64,000 bases of DNA from NCBI GenBank assembly GCA_900314605.1, contig OMVX01000002.1:1-64000 (forward strand), read 5' to 3'. Source of the DNA: an uncultured Methanobrevibacter sp. (GTDB lineage Archaea; Methanobacteriota; Methanobacteria; Methanobacteriales; Methanobacteriaceae). The notes under the pieces are model-generated. The model was not told the origin of the DNA. It did not search any database and saw nothing but the letters and a program-made list of their open reading frames with translations. Below, in pieces: positions 1,459-26,331 of the stretch (its first letter is position 1; each line of letters begins with the position of its first letter). The translations under genes and the position numbers were made by a program.

Positions 1459-2811
1459 ATGTCAAAAACTGCCCTTATAATAACTATTGGTCTAGCTACA
1501 GAACCTTCAATAAAAAGAATTAATAAATTAAAACCTGATTTAGTTTATTTTATACATTCTATAAAATCTAAAGAGAATACATTATTCATAATTGAAGAAA
1601 CTAAAATTAAAAATTATAAATTTAAATTATTAGATGACCATGAAAGTGTTGATGATGCATTCATAAAATCCTTAGAATGTATTAATGAATTAAAAAGTGA
1701 ATACAATATTGTAGGAGATTTTACTGTTGGAACAAAACCAATGGTTGCAGGTCTTGTGATGGCATGTTATGCATATGAAGGTTGTGATTGTGTTTATCTT
1801 GGAGAATCTGATGAAGATTCCAGACATAATAAAATGGGTCCTGTAAAATCAGGCCAGGAAAAAACGAAAAATCAGGAAAATCCATTTGAAAACTATGCAA
1901 TTAATGAAATTAAATCTGGAAGAGAATTTTTTGATAAATACCAATTTATTGCAGCAAAAGAAAACTTTACAAATGCTAAATTAAAATTAAAAGATTCTAG
2001 TTTAAAAGAAAAATCAAAAATATTTATCAAAATTGTAAATTTTTATGATTATTGGGATAAATTTAACGATAGTCTGGATGATATTAAATTAAATGAATAT
2101 TTAAAAGAGATGATTTTAGACGAAATAAATTCAAAAGATGTTTTAAAGGAATATTTTGAAAATAAAATACCTGATTTTTTTAAACAAATGAAAAACAACA
2201 AAAAATTTTTAGATAAAAAAATCTCTGAAAATACATCTGAAAGTATTGATTATTATTTACCAGATTTACTGAATAATGCAGAAAGAAGAATTTCAGAAGG
2301 TAAATATGATGATGCTGTAGCTAGACTTTATCGAGCAATGGAGTTAATATCTCAAATTAGATTAAATCATTATAATGTAATAGATAAATCAGAAATTAAT
2401 AAAAAGAAAACATTTTTACTGGATAAACAAAAATTAAAAAAGAGATTATCAAAACCTAATTTAGCAGAAGTTGATGAGATTGGAATTAAAGACTGGAGAA
2501 ATGATAACATTAAATTTGTTAAATTAGATTCTAGTAAAAATTATAAATTACTGAAATTATTTGGAAAAGAGACAAAATATGAAATTAGCAAATCTACTGA
2601 CAAATTAGTTAAAAATTATTTTAAAATTAATCCTCAAGTACAAAAAAGAAATAAATCTATTTTAGCTCATGGTTTAAGGCCATTGAATAAAGTAGAAACT
2701 TTACAATTATTCAAATTAGTTTTAAATCATTCAAAAAAATTATGTGAAAATATTGAAATTGAAATGGAAAAAAGTAAATTTCCACAATTTAAAGGAGATA
2801 TGTTATGGTAA
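1459..2811 (+). CDS. CARF-HEPN ribonuclease, Cas02710 family (first of tandem pair)
   Basis: The protein has about 450 residues. The N-terminal ~130 residues look like a CARF (Rossmann-like) domain: an LIITIGLATEPS strand-loop and a second motif, GDFTVGTKPMVAG, that matches the ligand-binding hD.T.GTK.M element of the Cas02710/Csx1 group. The middle is helical. The C-terminal part has NNAERRISEGKYDDAVARLYRAMELI and then RNKSILAH (about residues 397-404), an R-x6-H HEPN RNase motif. In type III CRISPR systems such proteins are activated by cyclic oligoadenylate and cut RNA. ATG 1459 was chosen because GTGAT lies just upstream. The gene overlaps the next by 7 nt and so is probably translationally coupled to it. 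No CRISPR array or Cas10 gene is in the window. Ligand and target are unknown. Confidence 0.8.
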   Translation: MSKTALIITIGLATEPSIKRINKLKPDLVYFIHSIKSKENTLFIIEETKIKNYKFKLLDDHESVDDAFIKSLECINELKSEYNIVGDFTVGTKPMVAGLVMACYAYEGCDCVYLGESDEDSRHNKMGPVKSGQEKTKNQENPFENYAINEIKSGREFFDKYQFIAAKENFTNAKLKLKDSSLKEKSKIFIKIVNFYDYWDKFNDSLDDIKLNEYLKEMILDEINSKDVLKEYFENKIPDFFKQMKNNKKFLDKKISENTSESIDYYLPDLLNNAERRISEGKYDDAVARLYRAMELISQIRLNHYNVIDKSEINKKKTFLLDKQKLKKRLSKPNLAEVDEIGIKDWRNDNIKFVKLDSSKNYKLLKLFGKETKYEISKSTDKLVKNYFKINPQVQKRNKSILAHGLRPLNKVETLQLFKLVLNHSKKLCENIEIEMEKSKFPQFKGDMLW

Positions 2812-4037
2812 AAGATATAGCAATGTTAATAACAGTTGGTACTGGTATTGGTGGAACAGAAGAAGCAACAAATAGTTTAGCCCATGGAATTCTTCATGCT
2901 ATAAATCAATTTAATCCTAAAAAAGTTATATTTTTTGGATCTGATTTATCTATACCTACTATTGATTCATTAAAAAAACAATACCTTAAAAAAGAAAATG
3001 ATGAATTTGATTTTTATGAATTCGTAAAAATAAAAGAAATCGATAATTTTAGAGATTGTTTTACTTTAATGAAAGATAAGCTTTTAGAGTTAAATGATAA
3101 TTATAAAATAATTATTGATTATACCTCTGGAACAAAAACAATGACAATGTCTGCTGCATTTGTATCAATGCTTTATCATAAAAAACTAGTGTTAGTTAAA
3201 GGTAAAAGAATGAATGGTATTGTTCAAAAAGGAACAGAGGAAATTTCTTCACAAAATTTATATTTAGTATATGATGAATTGATGATGTCAAAAGTAAAAG
3301 AAATGTTTAATACTAATAGATTTGAATCTGGAAAAACTTTACTTGAAGACATTATCGGAATGAATGATGATAAATTAATTTTTGAAAAATTATTCAATGC
3401 ATATTCTGCCTTTGATAGTGTAAATTATGAGTTAGCTTTTGAAAACTTCAACTCTAAAGAATTTAGTGAAAAATGGCCAGAATTAACCTCAGATTTTCAA
3501 AAAAATGCAAAAGCACTTAATATCTTAAATACCAAAAAACACAATCTAAAATGTTATTATATTCTTGCAAGCCTATTAAATAATGCTAGAAGAAGAGCTG
3601 AAGAACATAAATACGATGACGCAATTGCACGATTATATCGATCATTAGAACTTATAGGGCAGATTAAACTAAAAGAATATGGCATAAACACATCCAATGT
3701 TAATCTGGATAAATTAAAAGAAAATAATCTAAGTGACGAATTTTTAAAAAGTTTTCAGTCAGATGAAGATAATAAGATTAAAATTGGTTTAACACAAGAT
3801 TATATACTTTTAAATGAGTTAAAAGATGAATTAGGATTATTTTATATGGAAAAACACGAATTAATCCTAGAATACCTTAAATATAGAAATAATTCTATAT
3901 TAGCACATGGTTTAAACTCACAAAATGAAAAACATTATAATGATTTTAGAGATATAGTATTAAAAGCTAGTGAAATATTAAATAAAAATATCAATGAATT
4001 TATTTTAGAAACGAAGTTTCCAAAATTTAATTTATAA
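2805..4037 (+). CDS. CARF-HEPN ribonuclease, Cas02710 family (second of tandem pair)
   Basis: This 410-residue paralogue of the previous gene has a more canonical CARF region: LITVGTGIGGTEEATNSLAHG at the N terminus and DYTSGTKTMTMSAAF near residues 105-120. The C-terminal module again has NNARRRAEEHKYDDAIARLYRSLELI, followed by RNNSILAH (about 361-368), the R-x6-H HEPN catalytic signature. Both copies keep catalytic and ligand-type motifs, so neither looks dead. Two CARF-HEPN proteins from one transcript could form a heteromer, since family members dimerise through CARF and HEPN (inference). The start is an ATG inside the upstream gene, with GGAGAT at proper spacing. Transcription ends at the strong hairpin at 4070-4100. 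Confidence 0.82.
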   Translation: MVKDIAMLITVGTGIGGTEEATNSLAHGILHAINQFNPKKVIFFGSDLSIPTIDSLKKQYLKKENDEFDFYEFVKIKEIDNFRDCFTLMKDKLLELNDNYKIIIDYTSGTKTMTMSAAFVSMLYHKKLVLVKGKRMNGIVQKGTEEISSQNLYLVYDELMMSKVKEMFNTNRFESGKTLLEDIIGMNDDKLIFEKLFNAYSAFDSVNYELAFENFNSKEFSEKWPELTSDFQKNAKALNILNTKKHNLKCYYILASLLNNARRRAEEHKYDDAIARLYRSLELIGQIKLKEYGINTSNVNLDKLKENNLSDEFLKSFQSDEDNKIKIGLTQDYILLNELKDELGLFYMEKHELILEYLKYRNNSILAHGLNSQNEKHYNDFRDIVLKASEILNKNINEFILETKFPKFNL

Positions 4038-4256: not shown

Positions 4257-5171
4257 CTATCCATTTAAGGGTAAACCTAAGTTTTCACGTAAAACATAAT
4301 TTATTTCTTCTTTAAAATCTTCAACAGAAATTATAGACATTCCAAATGTTTTACTTAAGATATATGCAGTATTGGGATGAGGAACATCAGTTAAAACCAT
4401 AAAAGAATATTGTTTATCAAGACCCATTAAACTTTCAACTTCTGAATATTTATTAATATAATGTTGATAATTACCAGTTTTTCCTTCAAACCAGTAAATT
4501 TGTCCATTAATTAAAAAAACAACATCTAATTCAAAATCATCTCCATTTGGTAAAGTTATTTGGGGATTAATTAAATAAGTGTATTCTATGTCTGTAGGTA
4601 AAGACTGTAAAGATTCTTGCACAATTCTTCTAATAAAAATTTCTAACCAGTGGCCAGTTAAAAAGTTTATTGCAATTGGGATTTTATTTGGTGTTGCATG
4701 TATGAAGTATTTAGGTGATTTATCATATTTATATTCGGATAAAAATGCGATTTGATATAAATTATTACACAATTGACAGGAAGCAGAAATTTCATTTTGT
4801 GAAGCATTTTTTAAATCCAAATGAAAACCATGGGGCTTATTTAAGTGACGTTTCATTGCTTCGTAAACTGTTTTAATATCACTATATCTCATACCCATGA
4901 ATTTAGAAATATAATCCATAGAAGTATTTTCATCTTCCTTATCAACATAAGTTTTTACAGTAATATTATTATCTTTTAATTTATCAATTAATATATTAAC
5001 ATCAATTTCTTCTCTTTTATAAATAGGATGGGAAATTGTATTTTCTTCAGAAACAACATTCTGTGATGTATTTACATCCGAAGTTTTAGAGGGATTTTTT
5101 TCTAAAGAATCTGCAATACTTTCTAATGCTACTGCAATTCTAGTTAATATTTGTAATTCTTCTTCATTCAT
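4257..5171 (-). CDS. PD-(D/E)XK nuclease with Card1/Can2-like (DUF1887) C-terminal domain, no CARF seen
   Basis: The protein has about 304 residues. The N terminus is a short coiled coil (EELQILTRIAVALESIADSLE) and a polar linker. The C-terminal half has GHWLEIFIRRIVQESL and then ELDVVFLINGQIYWFEGKTG, i.e. the D-x(n)-E-x-K core of a PD-(D/E)XK nuclease, in the arrangement I know from the DUF1887 domain of Card1/Can2 CRISPR ancillary nucleases. Those enzymes carry an N-terminal CARF domain, and I cannot see one here. A CQLC pair may bind metal. The nuclease converges on the two CARF-HEPN genes, which fits a shared defence role. The second ATG was chosen because GGAAG sits 6 nt upstream of it. 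Metal-dependent nucleic-acid cleavage is inferred; the trigger is unknown. Confidence 0.65.
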   Translation of the reverse strand: MNEEELQILTRIAVALESIADSLEKNPSKTSDVNTSQNVVSEENTISHPIYKREEIDVNILIDKLKDNNITVKTYVDKEDENTSMDYISKFMGMRYSDIKTVYEAMKRHLNKPHGFHLDLKNASQNEISASCQLCNNLYQIAFLSEYKYDKSPKYFIHATPNKIPIAINFLTGHWLEIFIRRIVQESLQSLPTDIEYTYLINPQITLPNGDDFELDVVFLINGQIYWFEGKTGNYQHYINKYSEVESLMGLDKQYSFMVLTDVPHPNTAYILSKTFGMSIISVEDFKEEINYVLRENLGLPLNG

Positions 5172-5232
5172 ATACATCTTCCTGTTAATTAATCATATAA
5201 TGATTAAAAATAATGTTTAAATAATCCTCAAG

Positions 5233-12945: not shown

Positions 12946-13845
12946 TTATATATCTTTAAAGTATGGCATGTGTATAATTTCATCTTCATATATTAATGCA
13001 GAGCCAGAACCATAATCATTGGTGAATTTAATTAGTTCTCCAAGGCCAGGTGCTTCCTGTTTAATAAAAACTGAATTTGAAATATTATTAATAATTTCAT
13101 TAATATTAGCCTCATAACTAATATCAATCTCTTTATAATCAAGACTATCAATAATATAACTTTTAATAATCTTATCATGATAATTTGCATAAATATCAGG
13201 ACTATTAAAGAGCTCAAGACCTACAACTTCATTGTTAATAATTGCAATAATACCAGATTGACCAACTGATAAATCAAATGATTTTAAAAATTCATCTTGA
13301 TCTTGGCTAAAATCTTCATAACAGTCATTCATAGCACTAGTATCTGGCCTTGTTGAACATCGATCAGAAAACAAATCAATAGAATCCCATACATTATCTT
13401 GCCTGGATCTTTCATCAATAGCACTTGCTTTAGCTCGACGTGTATTTGAATTTGCAAAATATTGAGATTCTTCAAAAAGTACAGACTTATTATTCTTATA
13501 ACTCCATCTATCTCTTTCAGTACAGCTAACAGATATTTTCATGGTGGTTTTTGGTGGAACTAAAATAGTATTATTTACTATACGATTCTGTTTTGCTCCA
13601 ATAATCTCTTCTCCATCAACTAATATTAAGGGAGTAACTGCATTATTAGTTATGAGAATATTATTTACATCTTCAACTTCACATTCTTTAACTTCAACAA
13701 GACCTAAATCAAATCCTTTATTTAAAGTAAGAATATCAGTGGTGTTGGAAGTTTCAGATTTTAAAGGAATAATTGTAAGAGCATTATGACTTTGGATTTT
13801 TAATGTCTCAAAAATTATACTATTTTCATTAATTTTAATTTTCAT
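12946..13845 (-). CDS. ARPP-1-like domain protein (DUF6569 type)
   Basis: The protein is about 299 residues from ATG 13845, which has GGGGTGA upstream. The hallmark segment is VDGEEIIGAKQNRIVNNT...VPPKTTMKISVSCTERDRWSY (about residues 75-120), which I recognise from the ARPP-1 (ARG and rhodanese-phosphatase-superfamily-associated) domain. The rest is alpha/beta with GQSGIIAIINNEVVGLELF and an acidic C terminus. The biochemical role of ARPP-1 is not established; computational surveys of prokaryotic conflict genes place it in ADP-ribose-linked and defence contexts (from memory). It follows the HIRAN-like gene by about 50 bp and precedes the zinc-ribbon and vWA genes. Confidence 0.65.
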   Translation of the reverse strand: MKIKINENSIIFETLKIQSHNALTIIPLKSETSNTTDILTLNKGFDLGLVEVKECEVEDVNNILITNNAVTPLILVDGEEIIGAKQNRIVNNTILVPPKTTMKISVSCTERDRWSYKNNKSVLFEESQYFANSNTRRAKASAIDERSRQDNVWDSIDLFSDRCSTRPDTSAMNDCYEDFSQDQDEFLKSFDLSVGQSGIIAIINNEVVGLELFNSPDIYANYHDKIIKSYIIDSLDYKEIDISYEANINEIINNISNSVFIKQEAPGLGELIKFTNDYGSGSALIYEDEIIHMPYFKDI

Positions 13846-13893
13846 ACTATTCACCCCGATTAATAATAAAAAAAATAAAAAGAAAAAAATAAT

Positions 13894-14719: not shown

Positions 14720-16813
14720 TCAGAAATTTAATAAAATATCCTCTTTAAAAGATGAAATTCCTTGTCTATAATTATTTTCCTTAGATTGGAAACATTTGTA
14801 AAATGCATTATTCTCATATTTATCACAATTATTATAAATATATAATGCCCAATGCTTTCTTCTATTGTCAAGAGGTATGAATTTCATAAAAGAATCCTTA
14901 ATTAGTAATTTTTTATTGTTTTTAGGATTATACAAATAGAGAGATTTCTCTTTAAGACAATTATCAAAAATAATCTTGTCATAAATTGGTTGTGCACATG
15001 GTCCATTTAAAAGAATAATTTCATGAATAAAATTATTATCTTTACATTCAATATTACCAGTTGTATAAATTAATTTATAATTTGTATAAATTTCCAGTAT
15101 ATCAAAAACATCCTCTAAATACTCATCTAATATTTCAATCGTCTTTTCAGCATCATAAACATTAGACATTGCATCATGAAATTCCTTATTTCTAATATTT
15201 TTAACTTCATTTAATGCATATAAAATTTCATATGATGTGATCTTTTCAAAAAATTCTTCATCAAGAGCAGATGTGAAATTATTATCATTATAAACATCAG
15301 CAAGGTTTCTAGATATATAAATCCAATTTCCAAATGTCATTCCTGATTTATATTGTTTTAAAGTTAAATCACTCCAAATTTTATCAAAATTTTTTAAATA
15401 AACATCCCTAGGAAGGGCACTTAATAAAATAATAGCGTTAAAAGCTGCTGTAAATTCAAATAATTTAAGATAATTATCTTTTTTCTCCACTATTTCAAAA
15501 CCACATTTTGTTGCAGATAAATAAGATATTGCAAGTGGCCAAATCAAACCTTGATAAGCCTGTCTCCAGGATCTTGAGAGCTTATTAATTTCAGATGTTT
15601 GAGGGTCAATTTCAATCTCTCCTTTCAAATCTTTTAGTGATTGGGAAATATGTTTATAATCCAAAATATTTGAGTTAAACTCTTTTTTAAGTAAATCAAC
15701 TGTTTTAAAAAATTCTCTAGCTTCTCGTGATGTTTTAACAATTTCATTTTGAATATCTAAAGATGGAATTGGAATTTTAATAGAACCAATTAACTCAGCA
15801 CTAATATAATCATTTCCATCAGAATAATATAATAACTCATCAGTACCATAATCTGAATTTAAATATTCATATAAATAATCAGCTGAGACATTTTTTGATA
15901 TATTTGATATTTCAATAAATTGTTGATGATAAAAATCATTCCAATCCTTATTATAATAAACTAATTTATTATCAAGATTTTTAGATGAAGATATTAATAA
16001 TATAGTATCATTATTTTTCTTATCTGTATTTTTCAAATATGCAATATCTTCAAGTTTTTTAAATTTAACTTCACCCTCAATCAAAGGTTTATTTTTCTTT
16101 TCAAGCATATTTTCTGGGTTTGGTCGTTTTTTAAGATAAGAAGATTCTTTTATAAAATTAGCTGAAGAAAAATTAATTTTCTCAATATTTAATGACGGGT
16201 CAATTTGATTATTTTCAATTAATTTTTCATTCCTATTATTAAATGCTTGAGCTTCCCTTCCTATTAAACCACTAGTCACATCTTTAACTACATTAGCATC
16301 TACTTTTTTATTAAAATCTTCTAAATGGTCTTCCTCATATAAACTTAAGAGTTCATCAGATTCTTCAACAGTCACTAAAGTAGTTATATTTTGAAAAATA
16401 GTATTTAACTTTAAAGAAATTTCATTATCTGATTGTTTAAAAATCTTGATTAATTCCTCTGCAAGTTCTTCAGAAATATTTTCAAAATCAGCTTTATGAA
16501 ATAAAGCATCAGATTCATCAATTAATATAAAATCCTCAGAATTCTTATTTGAATCTAACATAATCAATATTATATTTGAAGAACCTTTATAAATTGGAAG
16601 TGAATAAACTGATTTTAAATTGTTAATATTTTTTATATTAGAAAATAATTGAATATTTGAATGAAAAAAAGATGATGAAATAGCTATGGCTAATTTTGAA
16701 TTAAAATTTGAAATTAAATTAATAAATTCTTTCTTTTCTTCATAAAATGAAAGATTTTTAATCTGATAATCATTACCAATTAATTTTTTTAAAAATTCAT
16801 CTATATTCATCAT
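14720..16813 (-). CDS. Degenerate N6-methylase / specificity (TRD) / HEPN fusion protein
   Basis: The protein is about 697 residues from ATG 16813, preceded by GAAGGAGAT. Residues ~1-165 resemble the C-terminal half of a type I modification subunit (LAIAISSSFFHS...LKSVYSLPIYKGSSNIILIMLD...FILIDESD), but no SAM-binding or NPPY motif is seen. Residues ~270-400 resemble a target-recognition domain, ending in ISAELIGSIKIPIPSLDIQNEIV and a helix, as in HsdS subunits. The C-terminal region is helical with RNKEFH (about 541-546), an R-x4-H HEPN RNase motif. It therefore reads as a sequence-recognition module without methyltransferase activity, joined to a likely RNase or toxin. The metallopeptidase gene ends 10 nt upstream, so the two are co-transcribed. 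The domain calls are by eye. Confidence 0.55.
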   Translation of the reverse strand: MMNIDEFLKKLIGNDYQIKNLSFYEEKKEFINLISNFNSKLAIAISSSFFHSNIQLFSNIKNINNLKSVYSLPIYKGSSNIILIMLDSNKNSEDFILIDESDALFHKADFENISEELAEELIKIFKQSDNEISLKLNTIFQNITTLVTVEESDELLSLYEEDHLEDFNKKVDANVVKDVTSGLIGREAQAFNNRNEKLIENNQIDPSLNIEKINFSSANFIKESSYLKKRPNPENMLEKKNKPLIEGEVKFKKLEDIAYLKNTDKKNNDTILLISSSKNLDNKLVYYNKDWNDFYHQQFIEISNISKNVSADYLYEYLNSDYGTDELLYYSDGNDYISAELIGSIKIPIPSLDIQNEIVKTSREAREFFKTVDLLKKEFNSNILDYKHISQSLKDLKGEIEIDPQTSEINKLSRSWRQAYQGLIWPLAISYLSATKCGFEIVEKKDNYLKLFEFTAAFNAIILLSALPRDVYLKNFDKIWSDLTLKQYKSGMTFGNWIYISRNLADVYNDNNFTSALDEEFFEKITSYEILYALNEVKNIRNKEFHDAMSNVYDAEKTIEILDEYLEDVFDILEIYTNYKLIYTTGNIECKDNNFIHEIILLNGPCAQPIYDKIIFDNCLKEKSLYLYNPKNNKKLLIKDSFMKFIPLDNRRKHWALYIYNNCDKYENNAFYKCFQSKENNYRQGISSFKEDILLNF

Positions 16814-16823
16814 ATTATCTCCT

Positions 16824-18068
16824 TCATTTATTATTTTCACTAAATTTCATGCGAGTATTCTCTAATTTTTCCAAATCCTTTGGATTATACATAATTTGAT
16901 CTATGTTTTTTGTTAAAATAATTTTTATAGCCTGTCTAAACTTATTCCAATTATTCTTTTTATCTGTTGCATATTGAAAATCATTAGTTTTTTTAAGGTC
17001 TGATTTACGTAATTCATATTTAATTTCATTTCTTAACTCAGCAGTGATAAATGATTCTATAATTGATTTAATATAAATTGCAAAAGTATTACCTATAGTT
17101 TTTGCAATATTTAAATGTTTTTTTGAATATTCCTGTGCAAATTCATTTAAAAGATCTAAATAAGACCCATAATCTTGATAAGCAAAATTTTCAAAACGAG
17201 CTTCGACAGTATGAGCACAGTATTCATCAACTACCTTATTAAAAATATCTTTATGTAATATATGATAAACTAATGCTTCTAATGCATCCGTCTTATCAGT
17301 GTTTAATATTTCAGATATAATCTGCTCTAAAATCTCAGATAAGAGAAAATGTGAAAGTTCATGTATAATTGTTATTATTTCATAAGGGTCACTGTCTATA
17401 TCCTGTACATATATTGTATTATATCCATAATACCCATAATAACTAGTATTAACCTGTTTATACTCAGTTTTTACAAATGTTTTAGCATATAATAGTATTT
17501 TCTCTGAAATATAAAGTTTGTCCATATAAATATTATACTTTGTAATAAATTCTTCCATAATCATTTTAGAAGTATTTGTTATATTTTGAATTATAGTATC
17601 AAATTGAAGCTGTGTAAAATTGAATTCCTTTAATAAATTTATATTTTCATCACTTAATAAGTCATTAAATTCTGCAAAATTATTTTGATGTTTTTTAAAG
17701 TTGTATCTTTTATTAGGATTGTACTTTAATTGTCGTATTTCATCAATATGCGGTCGGGGCTTAGAGAAAACTTCTAATGGTTCGTCCCATTCACATTTTA
17801 TACAATAATTATAATCTTCAGGATATTCTGCCCCACATGCTTTACATCTTTTAACTAAATCTTTTATATATGATAACTTAATTGGAGCATCATGGATACC
17901 GCAGAAATTATCATTTTTAAGATATTTCTTTCCACATTTAGGACATATTTTAACTAAATCTCTCTCATCAATTAGTTTAACTAAATTCAAATGTTTAGAG
18001 CAAAAATTATTCTCTGGAGAGTATTTTTTTCCACAAACTGGACAAACTTTATGATAATTAGATAAAAT
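16824..18068 (-). CDS. Zinc-ribbon metallopeptidase (HExxH zincin), probable ATT start
   Basis: From TTG 17990 the protein has 388 residues: a zinc ribbon (CPKCGKKYLKNDNFC, 16-30), a second one (CKACGAEYPEDYNYCIKC, 49-66), a helical region and a zincin motif IIHELSHFLL (HELSH about 210-214) with a downstream EYCAH-x-VEARFE that could supply further zinc ligands. In-frame codons upstream to 18080 encode a third matching ribbon, KVCPVCGKKYSPENNFCSKH, with no ATG, GTG or TTG. GTGATAAT-ATT at 18068 mirrors the GGTGATAAT-ATG starts seen elsewhere, so an ATT start (414 residues) or a mutated ATG is likely. The role is inferred as proteolysis of a partner, possibly to activate the methylase-HEPN protein encoded 10 nt downstream. 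Confidence 0.65.
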   Translation of the reverse strand: MLSNYHKVCPVCGKKYSPENNFCSKHLNLVKLIDERDLVKICPKCGKKYLKNDNFCGIHDAPIKLSYIKDLVKRCKACGAEYPEDYNYCIKCEWDEPLEVFSKPRPHIDEIRQLKYNPNKRYNFKKHQNNFAEFNDLLSDENINLLKEFNFTQLQFDTIIQNITNTSKMIMEEFITKYNIYMDKLYISEKILLYAKTFVKTEYKQVNTSYYGYYGYNTIYVQDIDSDPYEIITIIHELSHFLLSEILEQIISEILNTDKTDALEALVYHILHKDIFNKVVDEYCAHTVEARFENFAYQDYGSYLDLLNEFAQEYSKKHLNIAKTIGNTFAIYIKSIIESFITAELRNEIKYELRKSDLKKTNDFQYATDKKNNWNKFRQAIKIILTKNIDQIMYNPKDLEKLENTRMKFSENNK

Positions 18069-18204
18069 ATTATCACAATCCTATATTAGATTCAAGCTTT
18101 TTTTTGAAATAAATTAAAATAGAATTTTTTAATTCTTTAATTGAGTAATTTACTTTAATATTTTTAAATAGAACCAAGATATAATTAAATTTCTAAAGGA
18201 TATG

Positions 18205-18648
18205 TTATCTTATAAATGCAAGTATTATAGCAATAATAATAAATATCAATCCAATTCCACTCATTACTCCAAATGTAAATAATAAAAAAGTAGCAATTAA
18301 AAGGATTATAGCACCAATTTTTGCATAGTATCTTATTACAATAACTCCTATAATTTCACTAATCATTACAATTAAAATATATTGTAAAAGATTTGCATAT
18401 TGGAATCCATAATTATCCATTATTTGAGGAATTGAAAGGGCTATGAAAACAATCCCAATAAGTGCTAGAATAAATTCTATATTGTGATGAGGATTAGGAG
18501 AAAAAAACCTTTTTATTCTAGTAAAAATATTATCTATTCCATTACTAACATCCTCAGAATTAGGTATATAGTTTAATTTATTTCCACATTTACTGCAACG
18601 TTTATCAGTAACAGAAACTTCATTTCCACATTGTTCACAATAAGGCAT
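18205..18648 (-). CDS. Zinc-ribbon membrane protein
   Basis: The 147-residue protein has an N-terminal zinc ribbon, CEQCGNEVSVTDKRCSKCGNKL (residues 4-25), a polar linker and then four hydrophobic segments between about residues 57 and 147 (FILALIGIVFIALSI, YILIVMISEIIGVIVI, IGAIILLIATFLLF, GIGLIFIIIAIILAFI). It would sit in the membrane with the ribbon in the cytoplasm. It lies between the helicase and the metallopeptidase and could tether this system to the membrane (inference). GAGATGG precedes the ATG. Confidence 0.65.
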   Translation of the reverse strand: MPYCEQCGNEVSVTDKRCSKCGNKLNYIPNSEDVSNGIDNIFTRIKRFFSPNPHHNIEFILALIGIVFIALSIPQIMDNYGFQYANLLQYILIVMISEIIGVIVIRYYAKIGAIILLIATFLLFTFGVMSGIGLIFIIIAIILAFIR

Positions 18649-18809
18649 TTATTCCATCTCAATTTTAAAAAAATTTTCTTAAAGAATTATTATATATATT
18701 ATTGAAACTTAGTATTATAATGTTTGTTTAATATTTATAAGATATCAAGTAATTATAATAATTTGTATTTTTCATGATTAATTAAATCTTTTTAATTAGA
18801 TTGTTAAAT

Positions 18810-21404
18810 TTAACAAAAATCTTCAATAGAAAAAGAAGTATTTAATTTTGAATTTATCTTTTTTAATCTGTTAGCAAACCAAGTATCGCTCGTTTTACAT
18901 TTATCAAATGGAGGAGATTTATAATATAATTTAATAATATTTAATTCTCTTTCATAATCTTCTAATTTTTCTAAAGAAAAACAGATTCTTTTATAAAAAT
19001 CATAAAACTGATATTTTTCATTATGAATTATTTTAGTAAAGAATTCAATTGCATCTTCATATTTACCTTCTTTTTCTAAATTACGACCTATTTCATTTAA
19101 TTCATATTTTTTCTGAAGTTTTTCATATTCTTGCTCCGAAACAAGTTTTAAATTGTCTCTACTCCCTATTAATCTATCTGCAACAGGAACTGGAGTATGA
19201 AGTTTTGATTTATTTATAGCACCGTGATTTTGATAATATTCAAAACATTGAAAAATTTCTATTTCATTAAATGAAATTTTATCTCTTATTATCTTTAATT
19301 TTGAGTAAATCCAAATTAATTGATAAGAGGGTAAAAAAATATCTGATTTAAGCATCATTTTTATAGAATCTAACATCCCTTTAAAATCGTCCATTAATTC
19401 ATAAACAATACATAACTGCCTATATGGATAGTAATCATTAATAAAATAAGAATTTTCTATTAATAAATTCAAATAATCAATTAGAGTTGAATAATCTTTT
19501 TCAGATTTTAAAATCAAAGCTTTCTGTTTTAATAAGATTTTATTATTTACATTTTCATTAAAACTTAAAGAAGGATCATATTCATATAAATTGTCTTTAC
19601 ATATTTCCTCATTGGTATTTTCATTATTCAACGTAATAACATTTGCCTCTATAATTTTAGGATTTGATTTATTATTAGATAAATCCTTAGGTTTTTCTTC
19701 CTCCGGATAATTTAAATCTTTTTTGATTATTGTAGGTTTAATATTAATAGCATCCTTAAAATAATCAGGTATTAAATAATGTCTTGCATTATCTACTTTA
19801 AGATAATAGTCTAATCTACTATCAATAAAATAAGTTTTACAGTAATCATCTTCTGATCTCATTCCTCTACCATATGTTTGGACTAATGTAATAGCTGTTT
19901 TATATTGAAACCAAAAAGGATCATCTTTTCTTCTGAACTCTGTTTGTTTATCCTTGATACTAGGATAAGGAATTTTATATATAATCTGAAATCGACATAG
20001 GTCGCCAGGTAAATCAACTCCCTGATTCATGGAAGGACTAATAAGAACTAATGGTTTTTTAGATTTTTTAAACTTATTTAAAATTTTTTCTCTGTTACGA
20101 TTATTATGGTCAATTAATCTTTTATCATCCAATTCCTTTTTTAAAAATTCTTTACATCGGTAACTGACTGTGTGAATTATACCTTTATCATTTTTATGCT
20201 TTTCTAAAATCTCTTTTATAATTGGAATAGATTTTTTTGAGCTTTTAGGTAGATACTTGTAAGCCATATTTAATCCTGAATATGTTTTTATAGGATTCCT
20301 TCCAATATCAAATGGTGATTTTCTTCTAATAGCATAAATTTCATCTTCCTCAATACCTAACCATTTAGCAAATTTAGAGTAATTTAAAATTGTACCACTC
20401 AAAAATATACATTTATCCCCATACCTCAAAATGCTGTCTTTAGCATATTTATCTACCTTAATAGGTTTGAAAGATAATGTTTGAGAACGTTTATCATAAT
20501 CAACTATCCAATTATGTGGATCTACTTTAATATATTTAATAAACTTACTAAAGTCCTTAATTTTCTGTTTTAAATTTTCAATTTTTTTACTTAAAGTGAA
20601 AACCTTACGATTATCTAAAGCTTCTTTAGACTCTTTTAACTGTTTTTGATATGATTTTTTAATTTTATCAACAAAAAATATCCATGATTTATAACCATTA
20701 ATCTCTAAATCTAGAATTACATCTTTAGATAAATTAATACCGACTTCTTCTTTTAAATCTTTCCTTGTAAACTCTAAACTGATTAAGTCCATTAATTTAC
20801 TTTCTAAATTATGAGCTTCATCAAAAATCATTAATTCTCTTTTTTGAAAACCGCCGGGGTTGTGTAATTCTAAAAACATATAATCATAATTACTTATAAC
20901 AACCTTAGAATTTAAGCCGACAGCTTTTTGATAATGATATGGACAAGACTGTTCTTTGCCTTTATCATTATAATCAAACATTGTTACTCTATTATCACAG
21001 GAATAGGCTTCTAAAATACATTTACCATAATCACAGGTTTCATCTATTTTCTCATTAGCATATGTTAAACATTTAAAATTTTTCCTACCTTTAACAAGAG
21101 CAAAATTATAATCTTTAAAATCATCAAGATATTGATTCTGTAGTTGTTTAGTAATGGTTAAAATATATGCATCCTCATAAATCCTTGCGAGAGTTGCAGC
21201 TATAGCTGATTTACCAGTACCGGTTCCTGCTTCAAGAACGATATAATTATATCCCTTATTTATAGCATCAAAAATTTCAGATATTGTTTCTAATTGATGT
21301 GGACGAGGTTTATTAAATGGAAAATTATCAACGACTTCTTGAAAAATTTTTGTATAATTAGAATACTTCCATTCATTAGCTTTTTTAGAATTTTTATAAA
21401 ACAT
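18810..21404 (-). CDS. Rad3/XPD/DinG-type superfamily 2 helicase with C-terminal helical extension
   Basis: The 864-residue protein has an intact ATPase core: RPHQLETI (Q-like motif), Walker A EAGTGTGKSA (58-67) and DEAH (195-198), with VQTYGRGMRS near residue 500 as motif VI. Between Walker A and DEAH lie cysteines 112, 124, 129, 136 and 154, the place where XPD and DinG bind a 4Fe-4S cluster. The protein should therefore be a 5'-3' DNA helicase that unwinds or remodels forked DNA. The last ~280 residues are helical and TPR-like (for example GRNLEKEGKYEDAIEFFTKII), unusual for DinG. GGTGGAG precedes ATG. A catalytically dead relative is encoded 2.5 kb upstream in the same block. Confidence 0.85.
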   Translation of the reverse strand: MFYKNSKKANEWKYSNYTKIFQEVVDNFPFNKPRPHQLETISEIFDAINKGYNYIVLEAGTGTGKSAIAATLARIYEDAYILTITKQLQNQYLDDFKDYNFALVKGRKNFKCLTYANEKIDETCDYGKCILEAYSCDNRVTMFDYNDKGKEQSCPYHYQKAVGLNSKVVISNYDYMFLELHNPGGFQKRELMIFDEAHNLESKLMDLISLEFTRKDLKEEVGINLSKDVILDLEINGYKSWIFFVDKIKKSYQKQLKESKEALDNRKVFTLSKKIENLKQKIKDFSKFIKYIKVDPHNWIVDYDKRSQTLSFKPIKVDKYAKDSILRYGDKCIFLSGTILNYSKFAKWLGIEEDEIYAIRRKSPFDIGRNPIKTYSGLNMAYKYLPKSSKKSIPIIKEILEKHKNDKGIIHTVSYRCKEFLKKELDDKRLIDHNNRNREKILNKFKKSKKPLVLISPSMNQGVDLPGDLCRFQIIYKIPYPSIKDKQTEFRRKDDPFWFQYKTAITLVQTYGRGMRSEDDYCKTYFIDSRLDYYLKVDNARHYLIPDYFKDAINIKPTIIKKDLNYPEEEKPKDLSNNKSNPKIIEANVITLNNENTNEEICKDNLYEYDPSLSFNENVNNKILLKQKALILKSEKDYSTLIDYLNLLIENSYFINDYYPYRQLCIVYELMDDFKGMLDSIKMMLKSDIFLPSYQLIWIYSKLKIIRDKISFNEIEIFQCFEYYQNHGAINKSKLHTPVPVADRLIGSRDNLKLVSEQEYEKLQKKYELNEIGRNLEKEGKYEDAIEFFTKIIHNEKYQFYDFYKRICFSLEKLEDYERELNIIKLYYKSPPFDKCKTSDTWFANRLKKINSKLNTSFSIEDFC

Positions 21405-21440
21405 ATTAAAAACTCCACCACATTAAAATGTCTCCAAAAT

Positions 21441-21540
21441 TATATTTTTTAAATAATTTCTTTCTTTATTTTTAAAATAAAGGATTTTATGGAGATTTTA
21501 GAAAAAAGTTTTTGACCTTTGGCAGACACTATTAAAAAAA
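21441..21540. repeat. Dispersed ~100-bp intergenic repeat (copy 1)
   Basis: The segment shares long blocks with 50389-50490: TATTTTTTAAAT, ATTTCTTTCT, AAAATAAAGGATT, GAAGATTTTA/GGAGATTTTA and CAGACACT. It has no ORF. It lies between the TPR/cold-shock gene and the helicase gene. It may be the end of a decayed insertion element or a structured RNA. Confidence 0.5.
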
Positions 21541-21563
21541 AAAAGTTAAAAAATTAAAAATCA

Positions 21564-22766
21564 TTATATTACATGAATATTTACTGCATTTAATTTAAAT
21601 TCATCTTTAGATTTATCATAACCCTCTTCAAGATAAAATAAAACATTTACGCCCTCTTTAAAATCATCTTCATCTCCTTTAAATTGGAATTTATTAAAGA
21701 AATAAGACTCACCATCATCAGTTCTAATAAAACCAGATTTTCCATGTGGAAGAATCTTAGAGATATAACCTGAACATTCCTCCTGATTTTTATATTTTAA
21801 TTCAATCCAAAAACCAGCAAGTTCTTTTTCAATTTTCCAATATTCAGTATTATCAGGATCAAAATTGGAATCTGTAATTTTATCCTCTAAACTTTCATCA
21901 ATTGACCATTCATTATGTAATCTAATAGAATAAACTAGATAAGCATGTTTTAAGGCAATATCAGGATATTCATCCTGAAGTAAATCTTCAAGTAAAGAAT
22001 ATAATTTAACTTTTTTATCAATATCACCATGACTTAAAGCTGCAGACACTGCATATTCAAGAGATTTTGCATAATCCTCTTCAAAAAAGTAATTTTCAGC
22101 AATTTCACTTTGAATAAACCAATCCTGTTTATATTTATATACCTCATTAAGATATTCAATAGCTTCGGTGTATTCTCCAATTTCCCTTAATGATTTTGCT
22201 ATTCTCCATTTAAACCAGATATCACTATTATTTGTAAAGTTATCTAATTTTTCTAGTGCCTCTTTAGAAATAGTTAAACATTCATCATAGTCTTCTTCTT
22301 CAAGATAAGATTTGGAAAGTAAAGAATAATATTTTTCTCTAGAAGATTGGTTATTAATTACTCTTCCATCATCTCTAGTGAATGATGAAGTTTTTGAAGA
22401 TAAAAAATCAGGATTTAATCTATCTGACCAAACAATAATGTCTTCATAATCATTATTTTTTGATAAATAATCTAGAAGTTTCATCATAGATAAAGTATAT
22501 GCACATACCCCATCCTTTTTAGAAAGGTTTTCCTGAGGTAATAATTGGGTGACTAAATCTACCGCTTCAATTAATTCTGTTTCATTTTCTGGATTTTTAA
22601 TGTAAGTCTGATAAAGAGCCCAGCAATAAAATCTTTTATCCCAAATGTCAAATGCATCTTGATTATCTTCATAAATAGATTCATATAAATCTTTAGATTC
22701 TTCATATTTTTTGCTTTGATAAAGCTTTTTTGCCTGAATTAAAGTCTTTTTAATATCTTCACTCAA
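21564..22766 (-). CDS. TPR protein with C-terminal cold-shock (CSD-like) domain
   Basis: The protein is about 400 residues. Most of it is helical repeats of TPR type (IKKTLIQAKKLYQSKKYEESKDLYESIY; ALEKLDNFTNNSDIWFKWRIAKSLREIGEYTEAIEYLNEVYK; AENYFFEEDYAKSLEYAVSAA). The last ~65 residues read GYISKILPHGKSGFIRTDDGESYFFN...GVNVLFYLEEGYD, a cold-shock/OB-fold pattern with the GFI and YFF positions that contact single-stranded nucleic acid. A TTG at 22766 is preceded by GGGGTGG, which also contains the alternative GTG start at 22775. It is likely a nucleic-acid-binding scaffold for the neighbouring helicases (inference). Confidence 0.7.
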   Translation of the reverse strand: MSEDIKKTLIQAKKLYQSKKYEESKDLYESIYEDNQDAFDIWDKRFYCWALYQTYIKNPENETELIEAVDLVTQLLPQENLSKKDGVCAYTLSMMKLLDYLSKNNDYEDIIVWSDRLNPDFLSSKTSSFTRDDGRVINNQSSREKYYSLLSKSYLEEEDYDECLTISKEALEKLDNFTNNSDIWFKWRIAKSLREIGEYTEAIEYLNEVYKYKQDWFIQSEIAENYFFEEDYAKSLEYAVSAALSHGDIDKKVKLYSLLEDLLQDEYPDIALKHAYLVYSIRLHNEWSIDESLEDKITDSNFDPDNTEYWKIEKELAGFWIELKYKNQEECSGYISKILPHGKSGFIRTDDGESYFFNKFQFKGDEDDFKEGVNVLFYLEEGYDKSKDEFKLNAVNIHVI

Positions 22767-23014
22767 ATAATCCACCCCATTTCTATTATATGTATATAAA
22801 TTTCTATTTAAATTATTTATACTTTAATATTTAATTTAGATAATTTAACTCTTTTATTTTTTATGAAAAAAATCAAATCTAATTTGATTAATCAATTAAA
22901 AATACATATTTGTATTAGTTAATTAGGAATTGTTAAATATATTCTAAATAAATTTATTAAAATTTAATTATTCATTATATCTGATTAAATAAACTTCAAT
23001 TGGAAATTTTTTCC

Positions 23015-23932
23015 TTAAATTAATTTTTGCTGAACAGATTTAGATTTTTTTTGATTTATAGAATTCTTTAATTTATCTAAAACATCATCCACATTATCAA
23101 TTTTCAATGCATTTTTATTATCACTTAAAATTAATTGATTTCCCTCATAAAACCCTTCTGGATATTCATTAGGAAGAAATGAGTAAATTTGTTTTCCATA
23201 TTCTTGAGCAAAATCTACAGTGTGTAGTGTTCCACTATTAACTCCACATTCAACAACAAAAATATCCTGTGACAATGCTGCTACCATTCGATCCCTTTCA
23301 ATATAATGTCCTTTCTGAAATTTAACCCCTGGTTCATATTCAGAAATCAGACAACCTCCTGTTTTAATAATTTCTTCAGCTAGTTTTTTATTTGAAGCAG
23401 GTGTAATTTTAGTAATATCACTTGGAAGAACTGCAATTGTAATTTTATTTTCATCTACTGTGGTTTGATGTGCAATTTTATCACATCCCAAAGCTAAACC
23501 GCTTAAAATAACTCTATTTGTAACATTAACAATATTTTTTACTAATAATTCCTCAAATTCTACACTAACCTTATAAGGTTTTCTTGTTCCTATAACACCA
23601 ATATTTGGCTTTGTTAATGAATCAAGATTACCTTTAACATATAAAATGAGAGGCTTTTTATTACCCATAATGTTTAATTGTTTAGGATAATTTTCATCAA
23701 AAACGGTGATAACATCAATATCAGAATTAAAAAGATCATCATATAAATTTTCAGCATAATTCATAGATATTTCCGTCTCTTCCTTTGAAAGTTTACTTTC
23801 CAATTCTACTTCAGAAACTAAATCATAAAAATCATCCGATTCTTTAAGTATTTCCCAATATTTATCATATATAGTGGCTTTTCCAACATCTTTTAAATTT
23901 TTTAAAAATAATATTTCTTTAAGTTTAATCAT
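23015..23932 (-). CDS. DprA/Smf-like SLOG-domain protein
   Basis: The protein is about 305 residues. The Rossmann-like SLOG core is clear: NIGVIGTRKPYKVS, VILSGLALGCDKIAHQTTVD, TIAVLPSDI, GCLISEYEPG, RDRMVAALSQDIFVVECGVNSGTLHTVDFAQEYGKQIYSF. These match the DprA motifs (G-S/T-R, SGxAxGID-like, NR.I..LS...VVE...SGTL.TA..A...G). DprA loads RecA on ssDNA during transformation in bacteria, while SLOG proteins in conflict operons may bind nucleotides instead. The ATG (23932) follows GGTGAT; an earlier ATG overlaps the upstream stop (ATGGTGA). Tight coupling to the pseudo-helicase-phosphoribosyltransferase gene implies a joint function. Confidence 0.85.
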   Translation of the reverse strand: MIKLKEILFLKNLKDVGKATIYDKYWEILKESDDFYDLVSEVELESKLSKEETEISMNYAENLYDDLFNSDIDVITVFDENYPKQLNIMGNKKPLILYVKGNLDSLTKPNIGVIGTRKPYKVSVEFEELLVKNIVNVTNRVILSGLALGCDKIAHQTTVDENKITIAVLPSDITKITPASNKKLAEEIIKTGGCLISEYEPGVKFQKGHYIERDRMVAALSQDIFVVECGVNSGTLHTVDFAQEYGKQIYSFLPNEYPEGFYEGNQLILSDNKNALKIDNVDDVLDKLKNSINQKKSKSVQQKLI

Positions 23933-23937
23933 AATTA

Positions 23938-26031
23938 TCACCATAATGTTTTAAATAGAGCAAATTTAATAATATGATTTTTACTAGCACCATTTTTTAT
24001 TAAAATATCTTCACAAGCATCCATTACTGTTCCTCTAGTACATATATCATCTAAAATTATAAATACAACATCATCCCTTTCAAAAATATTATCATATACA
24101 CATTCGATTGAATTCATATGTTCTATATAGCTTGGACGTTTTTTCGTTATATGAGAAGTAGCTACATCTTTAGTTCGAATTAGTAAATTACTACAATTAA
24201 CAATCTCTTTATCACAAGCGAATCTTGTTTTTATTTTACCTTCATTATACCATTGTGAAAAGCATTTTATACTTTCTCTCATAGTAGCAAATTTATCCCT
24301 TTCTTTTGTAGATGAAGGAACAGAAATTAAAGCTATTTTATTTATTTGATTACTGATAAATTTATAAGATATTTCAGATATAGCCTCCATTAATCTTTTA
24401 TTAAAATAATTAAAGGAACCTAAACATCTTTCAGATTTTTCTGTTCCGTAATATTTATAATATAATATTTTTTCACTTAAACTTTTACTCTCACTATATT
24501 TATGATTAGAATCTATATTTTTATATTTATTATCTTTTACATAATCAAATAGATAATAAACTCCAAATTGTTTTTTAATATTACTGGTAACATATCCATA
24601 TCCTTTATCCATATCTACAATTGAATCAAGAATATACCTTGGAATAAATTTATTATTAAGAATATCATTCTTAATACTCAGTATAATAGGCTCATCAATA
24701 ATATATGAAACACAATTATCATCTGACTTTCTATTAATTCGTTGTAACATTTGTACAATGTAAAAAGCTTTTTTGTAGGAATACCAATTATTTTCTTTAT
24801 TTTTAATTTTAGCTCTTTTATTCCATGGAAGTAATTTTTCTTTCATAATTATTTGAAAATTACAGTTATATTTTTTAAAATCCATCTCCTCGTCTATTGA
24901 ATCAGAAACAAAAACAAAATTATCAATTTCTTTAAAATCAATATTATTTAATTTATTTTTTGGGTAATTTTTAATTGATATTATACGCCTGTCATTAATT
25001 TCATGATTAATTAAATTTTTATAACGCCTAGTGCAATCAATTATTCCTTTATCATTTTTATGTTTCTTCAATATATCTTCAATAATGAGTATTAAAAACT
25101 TTTTATTATCATAATAATTTTTCAAATAAAGATTATTTCTTAAAAAAATTTGTTGTTTATTCGAATCCCCCTTAAGAAGTTTTTTAATAAATTTTACTTT
25201 AAAATTATTTAAACCTAATTCTTGAGTAAATATTTCAGAATCTAATATTACGGGACTTATAAAAATACATATTTCTGCTTTATTTAACAAAAACTTCTTT
25301 AAAAGATTACCTATATTTAATGGTTGGAATTTTAAGCTTTTATACTTATAATTATCATAAGAACAAATCCAATTATCAGGATTTTCTTTAATAGAATCAA
25401 TAACAATATCTATTTTATCATCATCTAATTGTAAGAACTTAAAAAAATCTAACCAATCCTTATAATTTTTTTCCTCTAACTCTTTAACATTAAAATCCAG
25501 TGCATTAATTTTTTCTTTAAATTTTTCTATATCAATAGTATAAGTGAAAAAATTTGCAATATTTTCATCAATACTATAAGCATCATCAAAAATTAATAAG
25601 TTAATATTTTCGAAATCTTTAAACTTAAATATATTTTGATGAGTTGAAAAATGGATTTGTTCTTGATATTTTAAATCATAGCTTTTTATATATTTATTTT
25701 TAAGAAACTCATTTTCAGACAAAATAAATGAATTTTTGTATTTATTAGCTAAATTAATAGCAATAGAAGATATTTCAACATTTGTTTCTAAAATAATATA
25801 TTTATATCCATCTGTAATAGCTTGAATAATTCTATTCAATAGTTTATTTTGGTCTTCATTTAATGTAAGAGAATGAAAATTTTCTTTCATATCATTTTGA
25901 GATTGCCTTTTGGAGTCATTTGAATCTGTTTTTATATATTTATTCTTTTTAGAAAAATTAAAATTACTTTGATCGCAACAATATCCACAGATACACATAG
26001 ATTTAGGCAAACCACATTTAGGACAGAACAT
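23938..26031 (-). CDS. Inactivated Rad3-type helicase fused to a ComFC-like phosphoribosyltransferase
   Basis: The protein is about 697 residues from ATG 26031, with GGGGGGT upstream. It opens with a Cys-rich zinc ribbon (CPKCGLPKSMCICGYCC). Residues ~55-470 align by eye with the active helicase at 18810-21404 (shared landmarks ILE, SYD, KHKNDKGII, WYSYKKAFYIVQ), but the Walker A position reads ILETNVEISS, the DEAH position reads DDAY, and the FeS-region cysteines are absent. The C-terminal ~150 residues form a type I phosphoribosyltransferase: ALISVPSSTKERDK, ITKKRP and the PRPP loop VFIILDDICTRGT (656-668). ComFC homologues work with DprA in competence. Here the dead helicase may recruit DNA or the active helicase. 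This is the first gene of the block. Confidence 0.75.
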   Translation of the reverse strand: MFCPKCGLPKSMCICGYCCDQSNFNFSKKNKYIKTDSNDSKRQSQNDMKENFHSLTLNEDQNKLLNRIIQAITDGYKYIILETNVEISSIAINLANKYKNSFILSENEFLKNKYIKSYDLKYQEQIHFSTHQNIFKFKDFENINLLIFDDAYSIDENIANFFTYTIDIEKFKEKINALDFNVKELEEKNYKDWLDFFKFLQLDDDKIDIVIDSIKENPDNWICSYDNYKYKSLKFQPLNIGNLLKKFLLNKAEICIFISPVILDSEIFTQELGLNNFKVKFIKKLLKGDSNKQQIFLRNNLYLKNYYDNKKFLILIIEDILKKHKNDKGIIDCTRRYKNLINHEINDRRIISIKNYPKNKLNNIDFKEIDNFVFVSDSIDEEMDFKKYNCNFQIIMKEKLLPWNKRAKIKNKENNWYSYKKAFYIVQMLQRINRKSDDNCVSYIIDEPIILSIKNDILNNKFIPRYILDSIVDMDKGYGYVTSNIKKQFGVYYLFDYVKDNKYKNIDSNHKYSESKSLSEKILYYKYYGTEKSERCLGSFNYFNKRLMEAISEISYKFISNQINKIALISVPSSTKERDKFATMRESIKCFSQWYNEGKIKTRFACDKEIVNCSNLLIRTKDVATSHITKKRPSYIEHMNSIECVYDNIFERDDVVFIILDDICTRGTVMDACEDILIKNGASKNHIIKFALFKTLW

Positions 26032-26331
26032 ATTACCCCCCCATGAATTAAAAAGTCTATTTAACAAAATTAAAAATAAAATTATTATTTAAACTTTTTA
26101 TTTAAAAATATTATTAAAGTTATAATTGAAAAATTATATACATATATGTTTCACTAATTCTAGTATATAATTTTTTAAAATTTTAAAATTAATATTATGC
26201 TAAAAAATCAATTAAATAATAAAAAAAGGTAAATAAAATTTAAAGCATCTAATAGGTTATGAATATGAGATACAAAATCTTAAAGTTTGAAGTATTTAAA
26301 TTTAAATATTATATTAAACAAAATAATAACC

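Follow-up and report, generated by a model that had tools for sequence, protein, structure and literature searches.

A dead Rad3-type helicase fused to a ShosT-type phosphoribosyltransferase beside a DprA-like gene: a probable ShosTA-type toxin-antitoxin module in Methanobrevibacter

Why would an archaeon keep a helicase that seems to have lost its motor, and keep it fused to a phosphoribosyltransferase (PRTase)? The question is raised by a gene in a stretch of 64,000 nucleotides from an uncultured Methanobrevibacter sp. (contig OMVX01000002.1, positions 1 to 64,000, referred to here as the window), which appears to offer a natural example of a helicase retained for a purpose other than unwinding DNA. 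The gene at 23938-26031 on the minus strand encodes a protein of 697 residues with a Rad3/DinG-type helicase fold and a C-terminal PRTase, with the motifs lying where a first-pass annotation of the DNA had put them. That annotation had described a Rad3-type helicase and a PRTase in one protein coupled to dprA, and the description holds, with the end of the one gene and the start of the dprA-like gene overlapping by 7 bases (23938-23944). The parts of the locus are given in Table 1.

Table 1. Features of the fusion gene, its DprA-like partner and two nearby genes (positions in the window)
Feature	Residues	Position	Strand	Remarks
Fusion gene, toxin side: zinc motif, catalytically dead Rad3 helicase and ShosT-type PRTase		23938..26031	-	697 aa, ATG at 26031
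G-run 5' of the ATG, probable ribosome-binding site		26036..26042	-	read from sequence
N-terminal CxxC-x6-CxC motif	1-20	25972..26031	-	common to core Rad3 helicases of the order
Pseudo-Rad3 helicase region: RecA1, remnant Arch, RecA2	about 55-475	24607..25869	-	BLASTP, predicted fold
Ruined Walker A, LETNVEISS	81-89	25765..25791	-	alignment
Site of the missing 4Fe-4S domain	about 119-124	25660..25677	-	alignment with active relatives
Ruined DEAH box, DDAY	149-152	25576..25587	-	alignment
PRTase domain, ShosT-like	484-697	23941..24582	-	profile and predicted fold
PRPP-binding loop, IILDDICTRGTVM, intact	658-670	24022..24060	-	alignment of relatives
DprA-like antitoxin-side gene, ShosA type		23015..23944	-	309 aa; profile and fold
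TPR and cold-shock-domain protein, outside the minimal pair		21564..22775	-	403 aa; widespread family
Active-motif Rad3/DinG helicase, outside the minimal pair		18810..21404	-	864 aa; profile, genome survey

The helicase ancestry of the N-terminal part had been put forward with the proviso that profile comparison of residues 55-470 might show none, and it is upheld. BLASTP aligns the fusion with the 864-residue helicase over 372 residues at 29% identity (E 9e-32), with a second aligned piece covering the P-loop region (E 5e-7), and the fusion is matched by the DinG model of PADLOC (E 4e-7) and by a helicase family of PHROG (E 2e-17). An AlphaFold2 model of the full-length protein, built from 23 relatives, has a pLDDT of 84.8, and its top PDB matches in Foldseek are DinG and XPD structures, namely 9kqh (E 1.5e-12), 6fws, CasDinG and 3crv. 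The fusion therefore resembles the Rad3/XPD/DinG helicases, amongst them the core helicase of the Methanobacteriales, CasDinG and bacterial DinG, in its fold and in several structural motifs, and it has retained at its N terminus the zinc-type CxxC...CxC that is seen in the order's housekeeping Rad3 helicases. It differs from them in what has been lost, as Walker A, the DEAH box and the Fe-S domain are absent and motifs Ia, III, V and VI are altered.

An alignment that includes 31 active members of the Rad3 family from this order shows that these losses are shared by all three fusions that were found. Walker A (GxGxGKS) has disappeared from each by a two-residue deletion together with substitutions, the DEAH box reads DDAY, DDAH or DGAH, and the functional motifs Ia, III, V and VI are also gone from all three, with motif VI (QxxGRxxR) reading QMLQRINR, EPLQRPIT or DSLKKLAV, so that the glycine is gone from every one and the arginines in part. 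The first-pass annotation had noted the loss of Walker A, of DEAH and of the Fe-S cysteines; all of this is borne out, and in the case of the Fe-S cluster the entire 4Fe-4S domain has been deleted from the three proteins rather than the cysteines alone, with the five conserved cysteine columns appearing as gaps. An intact P-loop elsewhere in the protein had been named as something that would speak against a dead helicase, and a search for the pattern [AG]x4GK[ST] gave no occurrence anywhere in the 697 residues. Walker A and DEAH are retained in all complete Methanobacteriales Rad3 relatives that were checked, a simple pattern for the two failing in a few thaumarchaeal or truncated rows of the Rad3 set. 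Motif residues at conserved columns are not significantly more often lost than other residues (Fisher p 0.19-0.34), and to judge from the alignment the loss of motifs looks like part of an overall release from motor function.

The C-terminal domain and the neighbouring protein belong to a family other than the one first suggested for them. The PRTase is matched by the ShosT profile PDLC03962 (E 5e-14, residues 486-705 of a 709-residue frame) and the DprA-like protein by the ShosA profile PDLC03961 (E 5e-65), with the match to PsyrA being weaker (E 2e-31), and the PsyrT profile gave no match at E values up to 1. The same picture is given by structure, with the model of the PRTase alone (pLDDT 88.5) finding as its best fold among 350,542 PDB chains 8zvc, 'ShosT with PRPP-Mg', at E 6.5e-6, followed by the ComF of H. 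pylori, and the DprA-like protein matching the solved ShosA structure 9vzo at E 1e-24. The PRPP loop had been called intact, correctly so, since both acidic residues and the TxGT are present and the DD and the G are invariant in 12 relatives. The ComF family TIGR00201 matches the C terminus at E 7e-6 with 26 bits, against a curated cut-off of 233.55. The identity of the genes as a ShosTA-type pair of PRTase and DprA is thus well supported, and the competence or ComFC frame in which they had first been placed has to be given up, because the ShosT and ShosA profiles and fold rank first.

Whether the state of the helicase is peculiar to this genome can be answered from others, 151 genomes of the order having been searched with the ShosT profile and 152 genomes of the phylum with a profile of the fusion. 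It had been proposed to look for the same fusion elsewhere, and two more came to light, giving three in the 152 genomes of the phylum: one of 702 residues in G142 (L055) and one of 858 residues in G073 (L051), both Methanobrevibacter-type genomes, at E 5e-167 and 9e-157 respectively. The G073 protein carries an additional N-terminal region of about 105 residues (L051 5235-5550). The death of the helicase does not appear to be a matter of local decay, because the same fusion with the same motif losses is found directly before dprA in both of the other genomes. A tree groups the three fusions into a single clade (support 100/100) on a long stem, with no settled branch point relative to the core and accessory Rad3 helicases. 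Beyond these genomes, a pattern-seeded scan of GTDB r220 with a three-sequence profile returned one fusion, taken to be that of G073 itself, and a scan seeded with a single sequence returned none; no fusion was found in IMG/VR, in plasmids, or in phage records, where there were ordinary Rad3/DinG helicases only, nor in a scan of 23 genomes of a neighbouring phylum that was run without a positive control.

The three proteins have diverged deeply and unevenly. Between them the identity is 38-63% in the helicase region, 56-69% in the PRTase and 63-75% in DprA, compared with 65-67% between the active core Rad3 helicases of the same three genomes. The frames are intact although 37-62% of the helicase-region positions differ, with 47 columns still common to the fusions and the active helicases and a further 37 invariant columns that are specific to the fusions, although with three sequences, too few to judge the conservation of specific surfaces, these 37 residues could be inherited rather than selected. 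On these comparisons the dead domain appears to evolve faster than the active helicase, yet it is full length and predicted to fold, and the fusion seems to be maintained by selection with an unlike constraint on helicase, PRTase and DprA.

The surroundings of the pair bear on what it might work with. In G142 it has no helicase for a neighbour and stands alone between the LonB protease gene (lonB) and a gene of CobB/CobQ type. In G073 it lies inside a defence-like island that also encodes a DUF5655 protein, a TIR protein and a second ShosT-type PRTase, the gene for the latter following dprA (L051 8819-9514). The left end of the window carries genes for a Csm6 HEPN protein (2805-4037) and a Card1/Csx1-like protein (4257-5177), ancillary effectors of CRISPR type III, and the same island holds an ARPP-1 domain protein (12946-13854) and a 706-residue protein (14720-16840) with weak similarity to type I specificity subunits. 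The accessory Rad3 helicase, zinc-ribbon proteins and a TPR/cold-shock protein (window 14720-22775) recur together in other genomes (L150, L152, L165) and apparently make up a separate module. Of 151 genomes, 50 have a member of the TPR/cold-shock family, frequently in a housekeeping setting, and so the gene was rejected as an obligate third component. Close homologues in many Methanobrevibacter-type genomes (L153-L162) occupy a fixed site, where they adjoin other housekeeping genes and a conserved but unrelated gene of 904 residues that looks like valS; the family is also listed by PADLOC as defence-associated. The 864-type helicase was likewise dropped as an obligate partner, the pair standing alone in G142, the helicase being distant and most of its occurrences being free of the fusion. 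From these distributions the fusion and dprA by themselves make up the minimal unit.

Even so, the fusion had been proposed as a regulatory or docking subunit that pairs with the neighbouring active helicase of 864 residues, and the two halves of this proposal have fared differently. A non-catalytic role is the sensible reading because three species have kept the helicase in its dead form, but the active helicase is an unlikely partner. Both genes are close together on the same strand in the window, and an accessory helicase of this type is present in 3/3 fusion genomes as against about 38 of 151 in the order, the latter counted as rows over 500 bits; the probability of this by chance is near 0.02, but genomes rich in defence genes are not independent, and thus the association is possible but weak. 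In G142 the pair lies among housekeeping genes with the accessory helicase some 100-105 kb away, in G073 the distance is about 53 kb and the helicase is split over two pieces, about 35 genomes have the 864-type helicase without the fusion, and this helicase recurs in a module of its own with the TPR/cold-shock and zinc-ribbon proteins. Far less probable still is a competence-like unit for uptake or processing of ssDNA, in which the proteins would act as ComFC and DprA do. The weak ComF match, the second place of H. pylori ComF amongst the folds and the DprA domain itself are what speak for such a unit, yet ShosT and ShosA come first in both profile and fold, and a fusion confined to 3 of 152 genomes has the patchiness expected of a defence module and not of housekeeping DNA uptake.

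The helicase part might on the other hand be inert, a decaying remnant, a linker or a solubility tag, with the PRTase working without it. Standalone ShosT-type PRTases do exist in the order (as in G128, 200 residues), the helicase region is the faster evolving part (40-44% identity between G000 and G142, compared with 57% for the PRTase and 65% for the active core helicase), and the motif residues have not been preferentially lost, as a general relaxation predicts. One would however expect evolution to shorten or disrupt a useless domain of 420 residues, whereas this one has kept a full-length frame and a confidently predicted fold throughout a deeply diverged clade, together with the shared and the fusion-specific invariant columns described above, and an inert helicase part is accordingly a doubtful explanation.

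The reading that is preferred, and with fair confidence, is that the fusion and the DprA-like protein make up a toxin-antitoxin module of ShosTA type with a probable antiviral function, in which the dead Rad3 would act as a non-catalytic control domain. The C-terminal PRTase would be a PRPP-dependent effector, as its fold and motif suggest, and the Rad3 domain, without motifs for binding or hydrolysing ATP, would be kept folded in order to bind DNA or a protein partner and so position or restrain the PRTase. By analogy with its family the DprA-like protein may bind the PRTase and/or ssDNA and keep the PRTase harmless, until infection or replication damage, a trigger suggested by the literature on ShosTA and RqlHI, lifts the restraint. 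The freed PRTase, on the strength of the same literature, would then poison the nucleotide pool or the DNA. We infer an antiviral use from the family of the pair and from its defence-gene surroundings. For the helicase itself, the most likely role on the present comparisons would be that of a regulatory or DNA/partner-binding domain, without catalysis, for a PRTase toxin. A more specific version, in which a complete Rad3 was turned into a sensor or safety catch that recognises, without ATP, DNA of a certain structure or the replication complex of a virus and gates the PRTase, is offered as a tentative possibility, less probable than the general one. It can be compared with the dead helicase domains of RecC or AddB type, which are used for Chi recognition.

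Helicases other than Rad3 are also found with this type of PRTase. Fusions of UvrD with a ShosT-type PRTase, followed by dprA, occur in G117 (L048 3768-7991, 1407 residues) and G122 (L034 91-2001), and in each the PRTase comes behind the helicase and a zinc-ribbon region. In the former Walker A and DEYQD are intact, and in the latter DEYQD is seen in a contig that is incomplete at its start. They are like the fusion of the window in having a ShosT-type PRTase behind a helicase and then dprA, and unlike it in that the helicase is an SF1 UvrD without a Rad3 part. The standalone PRTase of G128 is in an operon of PRTase, DprA, TPR/cold-shock and UvrD genes (L053 1109-6266). The C-terminal repeats of this UvrD resemble the C terminus of the 864-residue Rad3 helicase of the window at about 30% identity, from which it seems that a C-terminal module passes between unrelated helicases. 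ShosT-type PRTases with dprA are found behind other N-terminal regions in five more genomes (G105, G012, G023, G135, G131). Within one archaeal order the ShosT PRTase is thus found by itself, joined to UvrD or joined to a dead Rad3, the partners being swapped around a PRTase-DprA core, and as PRTases that are standalone or fused to UvrD occur in the same order it would appear that the PRTase repeatedly takes a helicase partner. A constant core with exchangeable helicases fits a steering or sensing role on DNA.

Pairs of DprA and PRTase are already known from bacteria, where such a pair protects E. coli from T7 and lambda (PMC9122126). According to a review (PMC12593503) that cites Pu et al. 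2025, ShosT is a PRTase and pyrophosphatase that disturbs purine pools and causes DNA duplications, ShosA binds DNA, and the system is triggered by Gp0.7 of T7. The pair in the window is like ShosTA, also listed as DprA-PRTase, in having a PRTase with an intact PRPP loop, a DprA-like partner and overlapping genes. It differs in the complete dead Rad3 domain before the PRTase and in its archaeal host, and its toxicity is a predicted one.

A precedent for the architecture is that of RqlHI/PsyrTA, in which an SF2 helicase and a C-terminal PRTase are likewise in one protein that adjoins a DprA-like protein. In RqlHI the C-terminal PRTase of a RecQ helicase is toxic unless bound by the DprA-like protein, a mutant of the PRPP site is not toxic to growth, and the PRTase alone is not toxic either (PMC4670107). 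Because of this last point the dead helicase of the window might, by analogy, be required for toxicity instead of restraint. The difference is that the helicase of RqlH is a RecQ and active, whereas that of the window is of Rad3/DinG type and dead. No description of a dead Rad3 version of a helicase-PRTase with DprA was found in the literature. As RqlHI consists of a RecQ helicase and a PRTase restrained by a DprA-like protein, the protein of the window can be regarded as a putative Rad3 counterpart of that architecture, made of ShosT-type parts and with a helicase that was naturally inactivated. The purpose of the helicase attached to the toxic PRTase in RqlHI is unsettled, with engineered helicase-dead mutants still losing viability and being restrained only in part (PMC4670107). 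Evolution seems to have run the same experiment, with a helicase-dead form kept in at least three species, and this fusion, by separating the unwinding of DNA from the control of the PRTase, makes the question that RqlHI poses a directly testable one.
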